Under the pieces are notes generated by a model. That model saw only the letters and a program-made list of their open reading frames with translations, did no database searches and was not told the DNA's origin. A stretch of DNA of 5,805 nucleotides, from the NCBI GenBank assembly GCA_017380275.1, contig JAFOEH010000189.1, positions 1 to 5,805 on the forward strand. The letters run 5' to 3'. This document shows positions 1,335-5,758 of the stretch, one piece after another (the stretch's first letter is position 1; every line of letters starts with the position of its first letter). A program made the position numbers and the translations under genes. The DNA is from Alistipes sp. (GTDB taxonomy: Bacteria; Bacteroidota; Bacteroidia; Bacteroidales; Rikenellaceae).

Positions 1335-1367
1335 AAAACCATCGTTCCGTAGCGAACAATGGTTTTC
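1335..1367 (-). terminator. Intrinsic terminator hairpin of the trp attenuator
   Basis: On the minus strand, AAAACCATTGTTC (1366-1354) pairs with GAACGATGGTTTT (1347-1335) across the six-base loop GCTACG (1353-1348). This gives 13 consecutive base pairs including one U-G wobble (1358 with 1343); G1367 can add a G-U pair with 1334. The 3' side runs into a U-rich tract (UUUUUCUGUUGU). On the plus strand the wobble becomes a C-A mismatch, so the structure fits minus-strand RNA. It lies about 50 bases before the trpB2 start and 191 bases after the ksgA stop. It should therefore decide entry into trpB2 and could also stop read-through from ksgA. Confidence -1.
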
Positions 1368-1449
1368 TTATTTTTTGATTATTCGGGTGTACACACATAC
1401 GATTTCAACGCCATTGTTCTAATAGTCCAACGAGCGCCACCACCAATAG
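1335..1449 (-). promoter_or_regulatory. Tryptophan attenuator with mutually exclusive RNA hairpins
   Basis: Three pairings compete on the minus-strand RNA. First, CUAUUG (1449-1444), which overlaps the Tyr codon and first Trp codon of the leader peptide, can pair with CAAUGG (1416-1411); CGUUG (1432-1428) is a second possible partner for the same segment. Second, GAACAAUGG (1419-1411) is a perfect 9-base complement of CCAUUGUUC (1362-1354), giving an antiterminator that uses the 5' arm of the terminator. Third, the terminator stem itself (1366-1354 with 1347-1335). The arm at 1419-1411 begins on the last base of the leader stop codon. A ribosome that finishes the peptide would cover it and the terminator forms. 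A ribosome stalled at Trp codons (1445-1437) leaves it free and the antiterminator forms. The pairings are read from the sequence; the mechanism is inferred from classical trp and his attenuators. Confidence -1.
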
Positions 1450-1469
1450 TTATGTACCTGCTGCATCAT
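1419..1469 (-). CDS. Trp-rich leader peptide MMQQVHNYWWWRSLDY (attenuator sensor)
   Basis: A 16-codon open frame ending in TAG, with three tandem UGG codons at residues 9-11 (bases 1445-1437). Three Trp in 16 residues, in the leader of a tryptophan synthase gene, is the hallmark of a transcription-attenuation leader peptide, whose translation rather than its product matters. There are two consecutive ATG codons (1469 and 1466), so the start could be either. No Shine-Dalgarno sequence precedes them, as is usual in Bacteroidota. The predicted transcript start lies about 16-18 bases upstream of the first ATG. The stop codon's last base is also the first base of the antiterminator arm, so ribosome position is directly coupled to RNA folding. 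Confidence -1.
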   Translation of the reverse strand: MMQQVHNYWWWRSLDY

Positions 1470-1490
1470 TCAAGATAAATGTTTGTAATG

Positions 1491-1498
1491 CAAATATA
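1491..1498 (-). promoter_or_regulatory. Probable promoter -7 box of the trp leader
   Basis: The minus strand reads TATATTTG, an exact match to the Bacteroidota -7 consensus TAnnTTTG used by the RpoD-type sigma ABfr. The predicted start of transcription is about 1484-1487, just upstream of the leader peptide. I see no good -33 element at the usual distance of about 19 bases: the nearest TTTG (1529-1526) is 27 bases away, so upstream support is weak. Confidence -1.
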
Positions 1499-2434: not shown

Positions 2435-3169
2435 ATGCGTACAATAGAAGTTTGTTGCTCCTCGCTCGACGAAGCTCGCGAGGCCGAGGCGGGGGGCGCC
2501 CGCAGAATAGAGCTTTGTGCCGCCATAACCTGCGGTGGCGTAACACCAAGTTTAGGTGTGATTAGAGCAATCGTCGATGCTGGGCTGGAGATAGATATAA
2601 ACGTGCTGATACGTCCGCGTGAGGGCGGATTCTGCTATTCGGAGGCGGAGGTCGATGCAATGTGCCGCGACATCGAGACCTGCCGACGAATGGGTTTGCA
2701 CGGAGTAGTGATAGGAGCGCTGACCACAGAGGGCGATATAGATGTTGCCGCCTGCCGTCAGATGATGGAGGCCACAGGGGATATGTCGGTAACATTCCAC
2801 AGAGCCTTTGACGTGTGTCGCAAGCCTACGGAGGCATTGGAGCAGATCATTGCGTTAGGGTGTGACCGACTGCTCACATCGGGACAGAAGCCTACGGCAG
2901 CAGAGGGCGCAGAGCTCATTGCACAACTTGTTGGACAGGCTGCTGGGCGCATCATAATAATGCCCGGAGCAGGAATAAACCCATCGAACGTGGCACTCAT
3001 CGAGCAAAAAACAGCGGCCACGGAGTTTCACTCCACAGCCGCCGTCAATCTTATCGATTGTGCCTATCGTGGCGCCGACGTTTCGTTTGCTGCCTACCCC
3101 GACCGCGAGGGAATCATACGCCACTCGGCTCGGGAGGTGGTATCAGAGCTTGTGAATAACACTCTTTAG
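2435..3169 (+). CDS. cutC: Copper homeostasis protein CutC
   Basis: Cytoplasmic TIM-barrel protein of the CutC family, linked genetically to copper tolerance; its exact biochemical role in bacteria remains unsettled, and a copper-trafficking role is inferred from the family name. At 244 residues it is close to the E. coli length. Family motifs appear in order: IEVCCSS (4-10), IELCAAITCGGVTPSLGV (25-42), IRPREGGFCYS (59-69), GALTTEGDID (94-103), TFHRAFD (120-126), LTSGQK (147-152), IIMPGAG (174-180) and EFHS (197-200). Cysteines at 7, 8, 28 and 67 fall in these conserved blocks. The ATG at 2435 matches the family N-terminus. It is divergent from ksgA (88 bases between starts). Its last nine codons, including the TAG, overlap the 3' end of the lipoprotein gene on the other strand by 27 bases. 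No linked copper pump or sensor is visible. Confidence -1.
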   Translation: MRTIEVCCSSLDEAREAEAGGARRIELCAAITCGGVTPSLGVIRAIVDAGLEIDINVLIRPREGGFCYSEAEVDAMCRDIETCRRMGLHGVVIGALTTEGDIDVAACRQMMEATGDMSVTFHRAFDVCRKPTEALEQIIALGCDRLLTSGQKPTAAEGAELIAQLVGQAAGRIIIMPGAGINPSNVALIEQKTAATEFHSTAAVNLIDCAYRGADVSFAAYPDREGIIRHSAREVVSELVNNTL

Positions 3170-5758
3170 CTGCTCGGCAAGCGAGGTGTTATAGCCCTGT
3201 GAGAAGTAGACCACGCGACCGAACGTGTCGCAAAGAGCTATCACCGGCAGGGTTTTCGACGTTGAGTTACAGCCCGAGCAGAGCATCTGACGAACCTTAT
3301 CGTCAACATCGACTCCAAAGTGCGCCTCCAGATCGCCCAGCATCGAGCGGTTATACTTAGCGGCATCCTCCTTCGACGAGTTAAGCAGCACGATAGGGCG
3401 TCCCCACTGCTTAAGTTCCCCAGCAATAGAGGCCAAACCGCGTGAAGCGTGGTTGGTAGGCTCATCGCTCGTTCCCATAACCGCTACGAGGAAGTAGCCT
3501 CGGCCCGTAGTGGAGAGCAACGAGGTCTCCATCTCGGCACCCTCGGGCAAGTAACGCATCTCGGCATCCATCGAGCCAATTACACCCACCTCGTCGTTAG
3601 CAGGGCGCAGGCGCAACTCTATATCCTTGACCTTACCCTCCTCGACAGAGAATGTTACCACACGCGCCAAGATCTTACCGCTGGCCATACGGTTACCCGT
3701 AGTGAGGATGTAGTGGCCCTCGTCGAGTTCGATATGCTCGGCCAAAAGGCTTGGGTCGGCCGTAGCACCCAAATCATTCTTCAGGTTACTATCGAAACGG
3801 ATGGCACGCAGACGGCCATTCTCGATTTTACTGATTGAGCAGTGAGTATAATAGGTAGGTGTGGGGATCGCCGGAACGATGCGGGGATCGTATATCGTTC
3901 GGATAGCTCCACGACGCGCCTCACGCTCGGCAACATCTCCGTCGAGCATAACATCAACCCAACCATTCTCGCCCAGATACTGCGGCATACCGCTCATACT
4001 GCTCATACGCGATGCGACGCCGAACGCACGACACGCTGCAACAAAGAAAATCTCGCGCGAGAGGCTATCGGCACGGCGCAGACGCAAAACGCCAGCGGGA
4101 GTTGAGAGGATTTGGATGGGGTTGTATTCGTCCGCGGTCTTGATATTAGTCTTTACCCACTCGATAATCTGCGTAGCCGATGGTGTAGCTCCCAACTCGG
4201 AACCAAGCGTCTGGCGTATCACCGTGCGATATGGCTGCAGGAACTCGAAGTCGATGCGTGGGTTGAGGATATAATTAACGTAGGTGTCGGTAAGCTGAGC
4301 GGGCTCCACCGCAGAGAGAGCATCCTCCAGAACGGCCAACTTCGTATCGTGCAGATCCTTCGGGGCAAGGGCCTCGAGCATAGCGAGTGCGCGGTCGCGG
4401 TCGGCGCCCGACTTCGAATCGATGAAGGCCTTGACATCGCGCCAATTACCCATAGCTTCGATCAGCAGCGCCTGTTCGCGGGGCGTGTACTCCTTGCACT
4501 TATCGGCTGTCATAAAGGTTGAAGTGTAAGCCATACGGATTGCATCCTCATTCGAGAGGCGCACCTTATTGGCGGCAACCTGCTCATCTGTAAGATTGAC
4601 AGGGATCTCGCCCGGAACGGGTGGCATCATATCCTCCTCGAAGGTGAATGAATCACCATCGCGCTTATCGAGCTTGACTGTAATACTATCGCCCGAGAGC
4701 TTGCCGAAGCCGAAGCGGCCCTCGTGCGAGGCCCAGATGAAGATATCGCCCAAACCCATATGCAGCGACACCTCGCCCGCAGCATCGGTCGGGAGGGTTA
4801 CAACGGTGGTGAACTCGCCATAGTTGAAGATCTGAAACTCGACGGTAGCGCCCTCGACAGCCTTGCCGTCGGCATCCACAACGTGAACTACGGAGTGGCG
4901 CACGGGGGCGTAGTTGTCGATGACGTTGATCTCGGTGAAGCAGTTGGTCTTCTGGATGGCATCCTCGGGGCCAGAGTAGTCGCCCGTAACGCGGGTGTGC
5001 ATCAGCATTGCGCGGGTGGCAGGCTGGTTGAACCACGCCACGTTAAGCTCAGGCTCAGGCTCGCACGCTCCCATAAAGTACCACTCGCCATCAATCCACG
5101 CCTCAACCCAAGCGTGGTTACTGTCAGTATGTGCCCAGCGGGGCGTATAAACCTGACGTGCGGGGATTCCGACAGCACGCAGAGCCGAGACCGTAAAGGT
5201 TGACTCCTCACCACAACGGCCCTCGCCCGTGAGCATCGTGGCCATAGGCGATGAGGTGCGGCGGTCGGTGGGGACATATGTAGCCTTCTCGTGGCACCAA
5301 TGGTTGATCTCCAGCGCTGCATCGTGCAGCGACAGGCCCTTGATGCGCTTCGACAGTTCATCGTAGTACTCCATACGGAACTCATCAAGGCGCTCATTGT
5401 TGACACGAATGGGCAGCACAAAGTGACGGAAAAGATCCTCCGGCACATCATTACCCCACGGCATCTGCTCGCGTGCAAGCAATGACTGGCGCACGTTGGC
5501 AAGGAAAAACTCGCCATCGTAATCACCCAAATCGGATGAGGTCATCGACGAATAGAGGAACTCCATCGCACCACGCTCATCCTCGGTTAGTTCGCTATCG
5601 AAAATATCAAATACACCACCCTCGGTAAATACAGCTCGGCGCTGCTCGAAGGCCTCGTGAACCGATTGGCGGACCTCCGACGAGGAGATGAAATGGTGCT
5701 GGCAACTTATAAACATCAATGCCGAAAAGGCAATGAGGAAGATGTGTTTCATTCTCAT
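3143..5758 (-). CDS. Large lipoprotein with active-like and degenerate transglutaminase domains
   Basis: An 871-residue predicted lipoprotein; specific function unknown. MRMKHIFLIAFSALMFISC is a lipoprotein signal peptide ending at Cys19 (FISC lipobox), placing it in the envelope. After a helical N-terminal part (about 25-145) comes a transglutaminase/protease-like core (about 145-240): GRCGEES has Cys182, SNHAWVEAW has His215, and ACEPEP has Glu233 where an Asp is usual. A beta-sandwich-like segment follows (about 283-365; DADGKAVEGATVEF, TDAAGEVSLHMG). Then come a helical stretch (395-500), a second transglutaminase-like segment (about 525-607) with Ser565 and Asn598 replacing Cys and His, a beta-rich region (630-745), and a C-terminal thioredoxin-like segment (752-871). 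The open frame extends upstream to an ATG at 5803, but the promoter box lies inside that extension, so the ATG at 5758 (or 5752) is preferred. It is transcribed alone here, convergent with cutC. A peptidase or amidase on peptides or glycopeptides is as likely as crosslinking. Confidence -1.
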   Translation of the reverse strand: MRMKHIFLIAFSALMFISCQHHFISSSEVRQSVHEAFEQRRAVFTEGGVFDIFDSELTEDERGAMEFLYSSMTSSDLGDYDGEFFLANVRQSLLAREQMPWGNDVPEDLFRHFVLPIRVNNERLDEFRMEYYDELSKRIKGLSLHDAALEINHWCHEKATYVPTDRRTSSPMATMLTGEGRCGEESTFTVSALRAVGIPARQVYTPRWAHTDSNHAWVEAWIDGEWYFMGACEPEPELNVAWFNQPATRAMLMHTRVTGDYSGPEDAIQKTNCFTEINVIDNYAPVRHSVVHVVDADGKAVEGATVEFQIFNYGEFTTVVTLPTDAAGEVSLHMGLGDIFIWASHEGRFGFGKLSGDSITVKLDKRDGDSFTFEEDMMPPVPGEIPVNLTDEQVAANKVRLSNEDAIRMAYTSTFMTADKCKEYTPREQALLIEAMGNWRDVKAFIDSKSGADRDRALAMLEALAPKDLHDTKLAVLEDALSAVEPAQLTDTYVNYILNPRIDFEFLQPYRTVIRQTLGSELGATPSATQIIEWVKTNIKTADEYNPIQILSTPAGVLRLRRADSLSREIFFVAACRAFGVASRMSSMSGMPQYLGENGWVDVMLDGDVAEREARRGAIRTIYDPRIVPAIPTPTYYTHCSISKIENGRLRAIRFDSNLKNDLGATADPSLLAEHIELDEGHYILTTGNRMASGKILARVVTFSVEEGKVKDIELRLRPANDEVGVIGSMDAEMRYLPEGAEMETSLLSTTGRGYFLVAVMGTSDEPTNHASRGLASIAGELKQWGRPIVLLNSSKEDAAKYNRSMLGDLEAHFGVDVDDKVRQMLCSGCNSTSKTLPVIALCDTFGRVVYFSQGYNTSLAEQLKSVIHKL
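3156..3192. repeat. Inverted repeat at the convergent cutC/lipoprotein gene ends
   Basis: ATAACAC (3156-3162) is mirrored by GTGTTAT (3186-3192). Inside is a second small pair, CTCG (3173-3176) and CGAG (3182-3185). The stem straddles the cutC stop codon and lies within the last codons of the lipoprotein gene. It could act as a two-way terminator between converging genes, but no U-tract follows on either strand, so this is only a possibility. Confidence -1.

Follow-up and report, generated by a model that had tools for sequence, protein, structure and literature searches.

Organization of the locus

The window, which is the whole stretch of 5,805 nucleotides analysed here (Alistipes sp., contig JAFOEH010000189.1), contains a candidate attenuator on its minus strand, in the interval from the ksgA stop (1558) to the trpB2 start (1284). 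The parts of this element and the gene that follows it are listed below, together with the evidence on which the assignments are based.

1498-1491, minus strand: presumed promoter -7 box TATATTTG, of the Bacteroidota TAnnTTTG type (sequence; enrichment of TAnnTTTG in the leader set)
1469-1419, minus strand: leader peptide ORF MMQQVHNYWWWRSLDY, 16 codons and TAG (sequence; conservation; frame test)
1445-1437, minus strand: tandem Trp codons TGG TGG TGG, the proposed sensing site (sequence)
1457-1428, minus strand: strand 1, consisting of GTACATA (1457-1451) and the R-S-L codons CGCTCGTTG (1436-1428) (base pairs; fold of the window; swap test)
1419-1389, minus strand: strand 2, consisting of the antiterminator segment GAACAATGG (1419-1411) and the 3' half that closes the 1:2 hairpin
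1362-1354, minus strand: strand 3, CCATTGTTC, common to the antiterminator (2:3) and the terminator (3:4)
1366-1329, minus strand: intrinsic terminator (3:4) and U-rich tail (stem conservation in 29 aligned leaders)
1284-1, minus strand: trpB2, encoding a TrpB-like PLP enzyme and continuing beyond the window edge (NCBIfam matches)

The original prediction, made from the sequence of this stretch alone, proposed a TAnnTTTG box, a 16-codon peptide with three tandem Trp codons, a 9-base segment perfectly complementary to the 5' arm of the terminator, and a 13-bp terminator with a U-rich tail, and all of them are present. The leader ORF starts at ATG 1469, with a further ATG at 1466, and ends with TAG at 1421-1419; strand 2 begins at 1419, so that the antiterminator arm starts on the last base of the leader stop, as predicted. 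The antiterminator segment (1419-1411) is the exact reverse complement of strand 3 (1362-1354). The terminator stem is formed between 1366-1354 and 1347-1335 with one G-U pair and is followed by UUUUU, and the trpB2 start is located approximately 50 nt past this stem. The element was also predicted to be complete. The listed pieces support this, but a 1:2 anti-antiterminator hairpin (1457-1428 with 1416-1389) was overlooked. In this hairpin, GTACATA pairs with 1395-1389 and the R-S-L codons pair with CAATGGCG (1416-1409). The hairpin sequesters the antiterminator segment and has the Trp codons inside it, and it would therefore be opened by a ribosome positioned on these codons.

The trpB2 product matches NF009057 with 707 bits and TIGR01415 with 628 bits, both above the curated cut-off, and the classical trpB model TIGR00263 with 154 bits, which is under its cut-off. 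Its best structural relatives by sequence are 6hul, labelled as beta chain 1, and 4qys and 6hte, both labelled as beta chain 2. The trpB2 gene, whose end lies outside the window, looks mostly monocistronic, because at the loci inspected the next sizeable ORF 3' of trpB2 is encoded by the other strand (5/8) or by the same strand at a distance of 128-275 nt (3/8). Elsewhere in the window, the minus strand encodes an 869 aa protein with a transglutaminase core domain (PF01841) at 3143-5752, starting from ATG 5752; this protein has no NCBIfam match.

Conservation of the leader peptide ORF

The window's TrpB2 was used to scan for related loci, and the best 80 of at least 579 loci were analysed. An ATG-initiated leader with in-frame TGGTGG is located upstream of trpB2 at 45 of these 80 Bacteroidota loci, and these 45 leaders and that of the window constitute the leader set (46 leaders). 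A spurious MWWD frame at L024 was dropped from this set, and the first of two frames was used at L044. The Flavobacteriales locus L062, which has a leader with a TTG start, is outside the 46 but is counted as leader-bearing in the genome comparison described below, and L020 and L046, with only 32 and 51 upstream bases, were scored as leader-less among the 80. The leader-bearing loci are titled Alistipes, Rikenellaceae, Butyricimonas, Sanguibacteroides, Odoribacter, Paludibacteraceae, Egerieousia and others. No leader is seen at eight Spirosoma, Larkinella, Ferruginibacter and Niabella loci, and the leader is also absent from L014 and from the close relative L011, the TrpB2 of which is 87% identical to that of the window.

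The TGGTGG sequence is invariant in an alignment of 29 leaders (A1), although the leaders had been selected for TGGTGG. ATG frames of up to 40 codons that contain TGGTGG in frame and precede a strong terminator were counted on both strands of the 80 loci (945,182 bases). Such frames are found 73 times within 300 nt upstream of trpB2 and once elsewhere, with nested ATGs of a single leader counted separately. This result agrees with the expectation that the chance of a Trp-rich peptide, a matching antiterminator and a terminator all falling in front of this gene is very small. When the TGGTGG clusters within 300 nt upstream of trpB2 are examined by frame, 46 of 48 lie in a closed ATG frame that reads them as Trp codons, as compared with 3 and 3 in the other two frames. 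Of the 46 leaders, 38 have a TAnnTTTG sequence no more than 110 nt upstream of the Trp codons, as compared with a mean of 4.6 and a maximum of 9 in shuffled sequences. The UGG run and the competing stems, the loss of which in close relatives would have spoken against the prediction, are kept at loci titled Alistipes, Rikenellaceae, Butyricimonas, Odoribacter, Paludibacteraceae and others, with compensatory changes in both the terminator and the antiterminator.

Single-Trp short frames are observed upstream of trpB2 at L025 (SKYWRRRKSA...) and L047 (NRYWRRSQYIS), with a strong terminator clear only at L025. They may represent leaders in decay or leaders that rely on one Trp codon; both genomes retain trpA.

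A candidate methionine leader attenuator is observed in the Butyricimonas family at L026 (5038-5106), L028 (from 4908) and L032 (from 4833), and also at L164-L170. It consists of a short ORF ending in a sequence like MMCMQRLFAG, followed, as judged by eye, by an intrinsic terminator and a gene that is presumably aspartokinase-like, as named from its start KFGGTSVG. A pattern derived from the DNA of the Met leader peptide matches 7 of 56 genomes of this family, and an intact aspartokinase-like ORF follows in six of the seven, with L170 having none longer than 150 aa. An eighth match, L171, is unrelated.

Competing helices of the leader RNA

A terminator-like hairpin is present in all 46 leaders according to a loose rule (a stem of at least 6 bp and four or more U among the following 8 bases); in some relatives, L049 among them, the U tract is weak. 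The sequence of strand 2 differs between lineages: it is GAACAATGG in the window's kin, TAGTAAACAATG in Butyricimonas, TGTGAGCATTG in Egerieousia and AGGTGGAT at a Paludibacteraceae locus, and the segment of the terminator hairpin with which it pairs varies in step with it. The antiterminator complementarity, when compared with dinucleotide shuffles, reaches p≤0.05 in 35 and p≤0.01 in 22 of the 46 leaders. This comparison uses a target consisting of the 5' arm, the loop and half of the 3' arm of the terminator, which was widened because the Paludibacteraceae and Egerieousia leaders pair with the loop. With a narrower target (the 5' arm of the terminator and 3 bases), for which the type of shuffle also differs, p≤0.05 is reached in 30 of 46. 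For the window alone, the strand 2 match gives p=0.004 with the narrow target and p=0.013 with the wider one.

In the 29 aligned leaders, 97.0% of the cells of the 3:4 terminator are paired, and 9 of 13 pairs and 60 cells are changed on both sides. For the 2:3 antiterminator, 91.1% are paired, and 3 of 9 pairs and 12 cells are changed on both sides. None of 500 shuffles is as high for either helix. The pair count of the 1:2 helix on the MAFFT columns is not above that of shuffles (72.0% versus 70.9%), probably because the alignment drifts in this region. An alignment-free partner-swap test, in which each strand is paired either with its own partner or with the partners of other leaders, was therefore adopted for the 1:2 helix. 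For the 46 leaders, the mean energies with own and swapped partners are -12.2 and -7.9 kcal/mol for 1:2 outer, -11.5 and -8.6 kcal/mol for 1:2 inner, -15.7 and -10.2 kcal/mol for 2:3, and -19.8 and -8.6 kcal/mol for 3:4. The p value is 0.0002, the floor of the test, for each helix, and each helix behaves in the same way with 17 dissimilar representatives. The window's own partners are not outstanding, because foreign partners are as good in 47%, 31%, 29% and 9% of the cases for 1:2 outer, 1:2 inner, 2:3 and 3:4 respectively. The support from this test comes from the leader set and not from the window alone, the margins of which are modest. At the level of sequence, the leader ORF with its Trp run, the mutually exclusive 1:2, 2:3 and 3:4 helices with co-changing partners, the terminator and the linkage to trpB2 are established.

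The whole leader of the window folds with -42.9 kcal/mol (z of -3.2 against shuffles). The pre-terminator fold has z below -1 in 34 of 46 leaders, with a mean of -2.0, and only -0.8 in the window alone. When the RNA is freed from 1426 on, which mimics a ribosome at the Trp codons, the minimum-energy fold contains the terminator and not the 2:3 antiterminator. Because the freed RNA prefers the terminator at equilibrium, antitermination must rely on formation of the 2:3 helix before strand 4 is synthesized. Attenuators usually work by the order of strand synthesis.

Relation to the trp operon leaders of Bacteroidota

Bacteroid-trp (RF01692) is listed as a likely cis-regulatory RNA of Bacteroidetes in a 2010 report (Weinberg; PMC2864571), and another paper places it ahead of the trp operon of Flavobacterium psychrophilum and compares it to the leader of E. 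coli (PMC6414381). Tryptophan attenuation in Bacteroidota is thus prior art, since Bacteroid-trp was reported in 2010. The original prediction, which named no well-characterized example before a trpB2 gene in this phylum, stands for trpB2, for which no attenuator in Bacteroidota is described among the open-access matches listed, but it did not take into account that Trp attenuation is already known there, as the entry for RF01692 in PMC2864571 indicates.

RF01692 (gathering score of 49 bits) does not match the window at E values up to 10. With stricter filters, it matches none of the 39 trpB2 leaders of 50 genomes at E≤0.001, and it matches none of 11 leader-bearing trpB2 loci at E up to 1. 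It does match 4 of the 50 trpB2-bearing genomes. All four matches lie in front of the trpB1 gene of a trp operon, and MNLYFSNIWWWRLQLLKS is an example of the leaders found there. The seven Rfam matches to the window at E up to 10 are all below the gathering score. ohsC_RNA at 1330-1409 (28 bits against a gathering score of 50; E=0.34 in the wider search and 0.013 with a short stretch) is a chance match to a terminator-like hairpin, and GibS, SSRC34_2, RcsR1, bantam, AbsR25 and sR12 (E of 0.28 to 7.9) were set aside.

A model, R1, was built from 29 of the 46 leaders, all of them trpB2 leaders. R1 detects 13 of 17 left-out trpB2 leaders at E≤0.001; the others are weak or missed (L038, 0.0042; L035, 0.018; L033, 0.035; L079, 0.68). 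Three trp operon leaders of the RF01692 type (L081, L083 and L084) are matched over the full model with E of 5e-13 to 8e-12 (55-59 bits), and the fourth (L082) is matched weakly (E of 0.0016). In the phylum, R1 matches 67 of 296 genomes, including G001 of the training set. The best 30 loci behind these matches were fetched, one of which (L115) is a training sequence; some of the weaker matches are partial. A TrpE-like ORF follows the match at 28 of the 29 untrained loci, and 27 of these 28 have a leader with WW or WWW; at L144 no ORF was detected downstream, and L133 has no WW leader by the rule used. The best NCBIfam family of four TrpE-like ORFs is trpE_most in all four cases, above the cut-off in two. 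WW/WWW leader peptides with terminators are thus observed before trpE across Bacteroidota (L116-L143), and nearly all of them are missed by RF01692.

Of the 29 genomes that contain the best untrained R1 matches, RF01692 matches 2 at E≤0.001, one of them above the cut-off. Its failure to match the other 27 suggests that the Bacteroid-trp model misses many such leaders. In the swap test, the trp operon leaders (31, excluding L133 and L144) favour their own partners for 1:2 outer, 2:3 and 3:4. As judged from these sequences, the trpB2 leaders and the trp operon leaders are the same kind of device and possibly belong to the same family. Their common descent seems likely, but the shared TGG run and terminator could be convergent.

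Tryptophan pathway genes in related genomes

Fifty genomes were picked by hand from the best 80 loci to spread over lineages. trpB1, trpA and trpC (IGPS) are detected above the cut-off in 16, 15 and 14 of them respectively, and neither trpA nor trpB1 is found in 33. A trpB2 leader is present in 32 of these 33 genomes, as compared with 7 of the 17 others (Fisher p=1.8e-5, a value that overstates independence, because the genomes are related and hand-picked and many are MAGs that may be incomplete). The sole leader-less genome among the 33 is that of L014, and that of L062 is counted as leader-bearing. This distribution suggests a role for lone TrpB2 in indole salvage, with the regulation of a tryptophan enzyme. 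Among the genomes searched, those closest to the window (G001, G002, G004 and G007; TrpB2 92-94% identical) show no trpA, trpB1 or trpC. The organism of the window has probably lost the trp pathway as well, to judge from its relatives, many of which are MAGs that may be incomplete.

Leaders are present at both trpB1 and trpB2 in at least five genomes. R1 matches at both genes in G012 and G013; it matches at trpB1 in G024 and G029, which have a leader by frame at trpB2; and in G038 RF01692 matches at trpB1, and the frame and R1 are found at trpB2. A gene of the tryptophanase family, the model of which may also catch tyrosine phenol-lyases, is detected above the cut-off in 31 of the 50 genomes, including 24 of the 33 without trpA and trpB1.

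Proposed mechanism and alternative explanations

The element is very probably a ribosome-mediated transcription attenuator of the classical four-strand type, by which trpB2 is controlled in response to charged tRNA-Trp. Ribosome-mediated Trp attenuation, as originally proposed for this locus, is strongly supported by the conservation of the leader, the antiterminator and the terminator in relatives. The mechanism is derived from the anatomy by analogy with the established E. coli model, according to which leader translation, ribosome stalling, termination and the response to Trp would proceed as follows. When Trp is ample, the ribosome would reach the stop codon at 1421-1419 and mask strand 2, because the footprint of a ribosome at the leader stop would reach 1419-1411, and the 3:4 terminator would halt RNA polymerase ahead of trpB2. 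When Trp is scarce, the ribosome would stall at 1445-1437 and mask strand 1, leaving strand 2 free to pair with strand 3 once strand 3 has been made, so that trpB2 would be transcribed. Without a ribosome, the 1:2 hairpin would form, and termination would occur by default. An attenuator of this design requires the leader ribosome and RNA polymerase to be in step. To our knowledge, the coupling of ribosome and polymerase has been little studied in Bacteroidota.

It is very unlikely that attenuation is translational or linked to Rho and does not proceed through the intrinsic terminator. The weak U tract of relatives such as L049 would fit such a mode, as would the initiation signals of Bacteroidota, which differ from those of E. 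coli, but the terminator stem is the best-conserved helix, a U-rich stretch follows it in 46 of 46 leaders by the loose rule, and the trpB2 start of the window is located approximately 50 nt beyond it. A leader that binds a protein or a ligand, either TRAP-like or a riboswitch, and contains the short ORF only incidentally is somewhat less likely still. Stable alternative structures exist irrespective of the sensor; against this explanation, the TGGTGG clusters lie in a closed ATG frame in 46 of 48 cases and in the other frames in 3 and 3, strands 1-4 co-vary between lineages while the Trp run remains constant, and the seven Rfam matches at E up to 10, all of them sub-gathering, include no riboswitch family.

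The least likely alternative is a TnaC-like sensor, in which the nascent peptide would bind free Trp, stall the ribosome at high Trp and induce the gene. A short Trp-containing leader is present, and a gene of the tryptophanase family is located elsewhere in many related genomes (31/50 above the cut-off). The comparison with the features of TnaC argues against such a sensor, because the Trp codons form a tandem run and the remaining peptide is variable outside close kin, an intrinsic terminator and an antiterminator compete, and the same kind of leader stands before trpE. Induction of a Trp-making enzyme by free Trp would also have the wrong sign.

Attenuation in response to charged tRNA-Trp is the preferred explanation, and it bears on the question of what stand-alone TrpB2 does (PMC1854888). 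According to that paper, the role of TrpB2 outside trp operons has been debated, a proposed serine deaminase function was found to be poor, and the lone trpB2 of Pyrococcus horikoshii, the only trp gene of its genome, was regarded as pointing to an unidentified function. Because a Trp-codon attenuator is located on lone trpB2, the cell apparently treats the enzyme as a source of tryptophan. The simplest reading is that the regulated product of lone TrpB2 is tryptophan, which the enzyme is predicted to make from indole, and in bacteria without trpA and trpB1 the enzyme would use salvaged indole and serine. The element would be a divergent relative of the trp operon attenuators of the phylum, of the Bacteroid-trp kind, that has been joined to lone TrpB2. 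A broader reading, for which the chances are about even, is that the phylum possesses one ancient family of tRNA-Trp attenuators, most of which RF01692 does not detect. In lineages that lost the trp pathway, the element would have persisted on, or moved to, lone trpB2, encoding an indole-salvage enzyme of gut bacteria that is induced by Trp starvation, and this regulation would answer what stand-alone TrpB2 is for. If so, many Alistipes-like and Odoribacter-like gut bacteria would import their own or their neighbours' indole and reconvert it to Trp when starved.

Comparison with known systems

The element resembles Bacteroid-trp in its occurrence in Bacteroidota, its WW or WWW leader peptide, the position of the antiterminator strand at the leader stop and its intrinsic terminator, but it precedes a lone trpB2 instead of a trp operon. 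It shares a UGG-run leader and competing hairpins with the actinobacterial trp attenuators (Seliverstov 2005; PMC1262725), which include a reported candidate upstream of Corynebacterium diphtheriae trpB2A. In that account, the C. diphtheriae trpB2 adjoins trpA and the genome also contains trpB1EDGC, whereas the trpB2 of the window, which is of the TIGR01415 type, is alone. The mechanism is known, and its attachment to trpB2 is absent from the Rfam library searched. A wider survey of attenuation by Lopatovskaya, which appeared in 2010 in Mol. Biol., may mention Bacteroidetes. Trp_leader (RF00513), the model of the E. coli trpL attenuator, is not among the Rfam matches to the window at E up to 10. 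Like E. coli trpL, the element has four strands and tandem Trp codons in strand 1, and a terminating ribosome would mask strand 2; unlike trpL, it has three Trp codons, belongs to another phylum and would control trpB2 instead of trpEDCBA.
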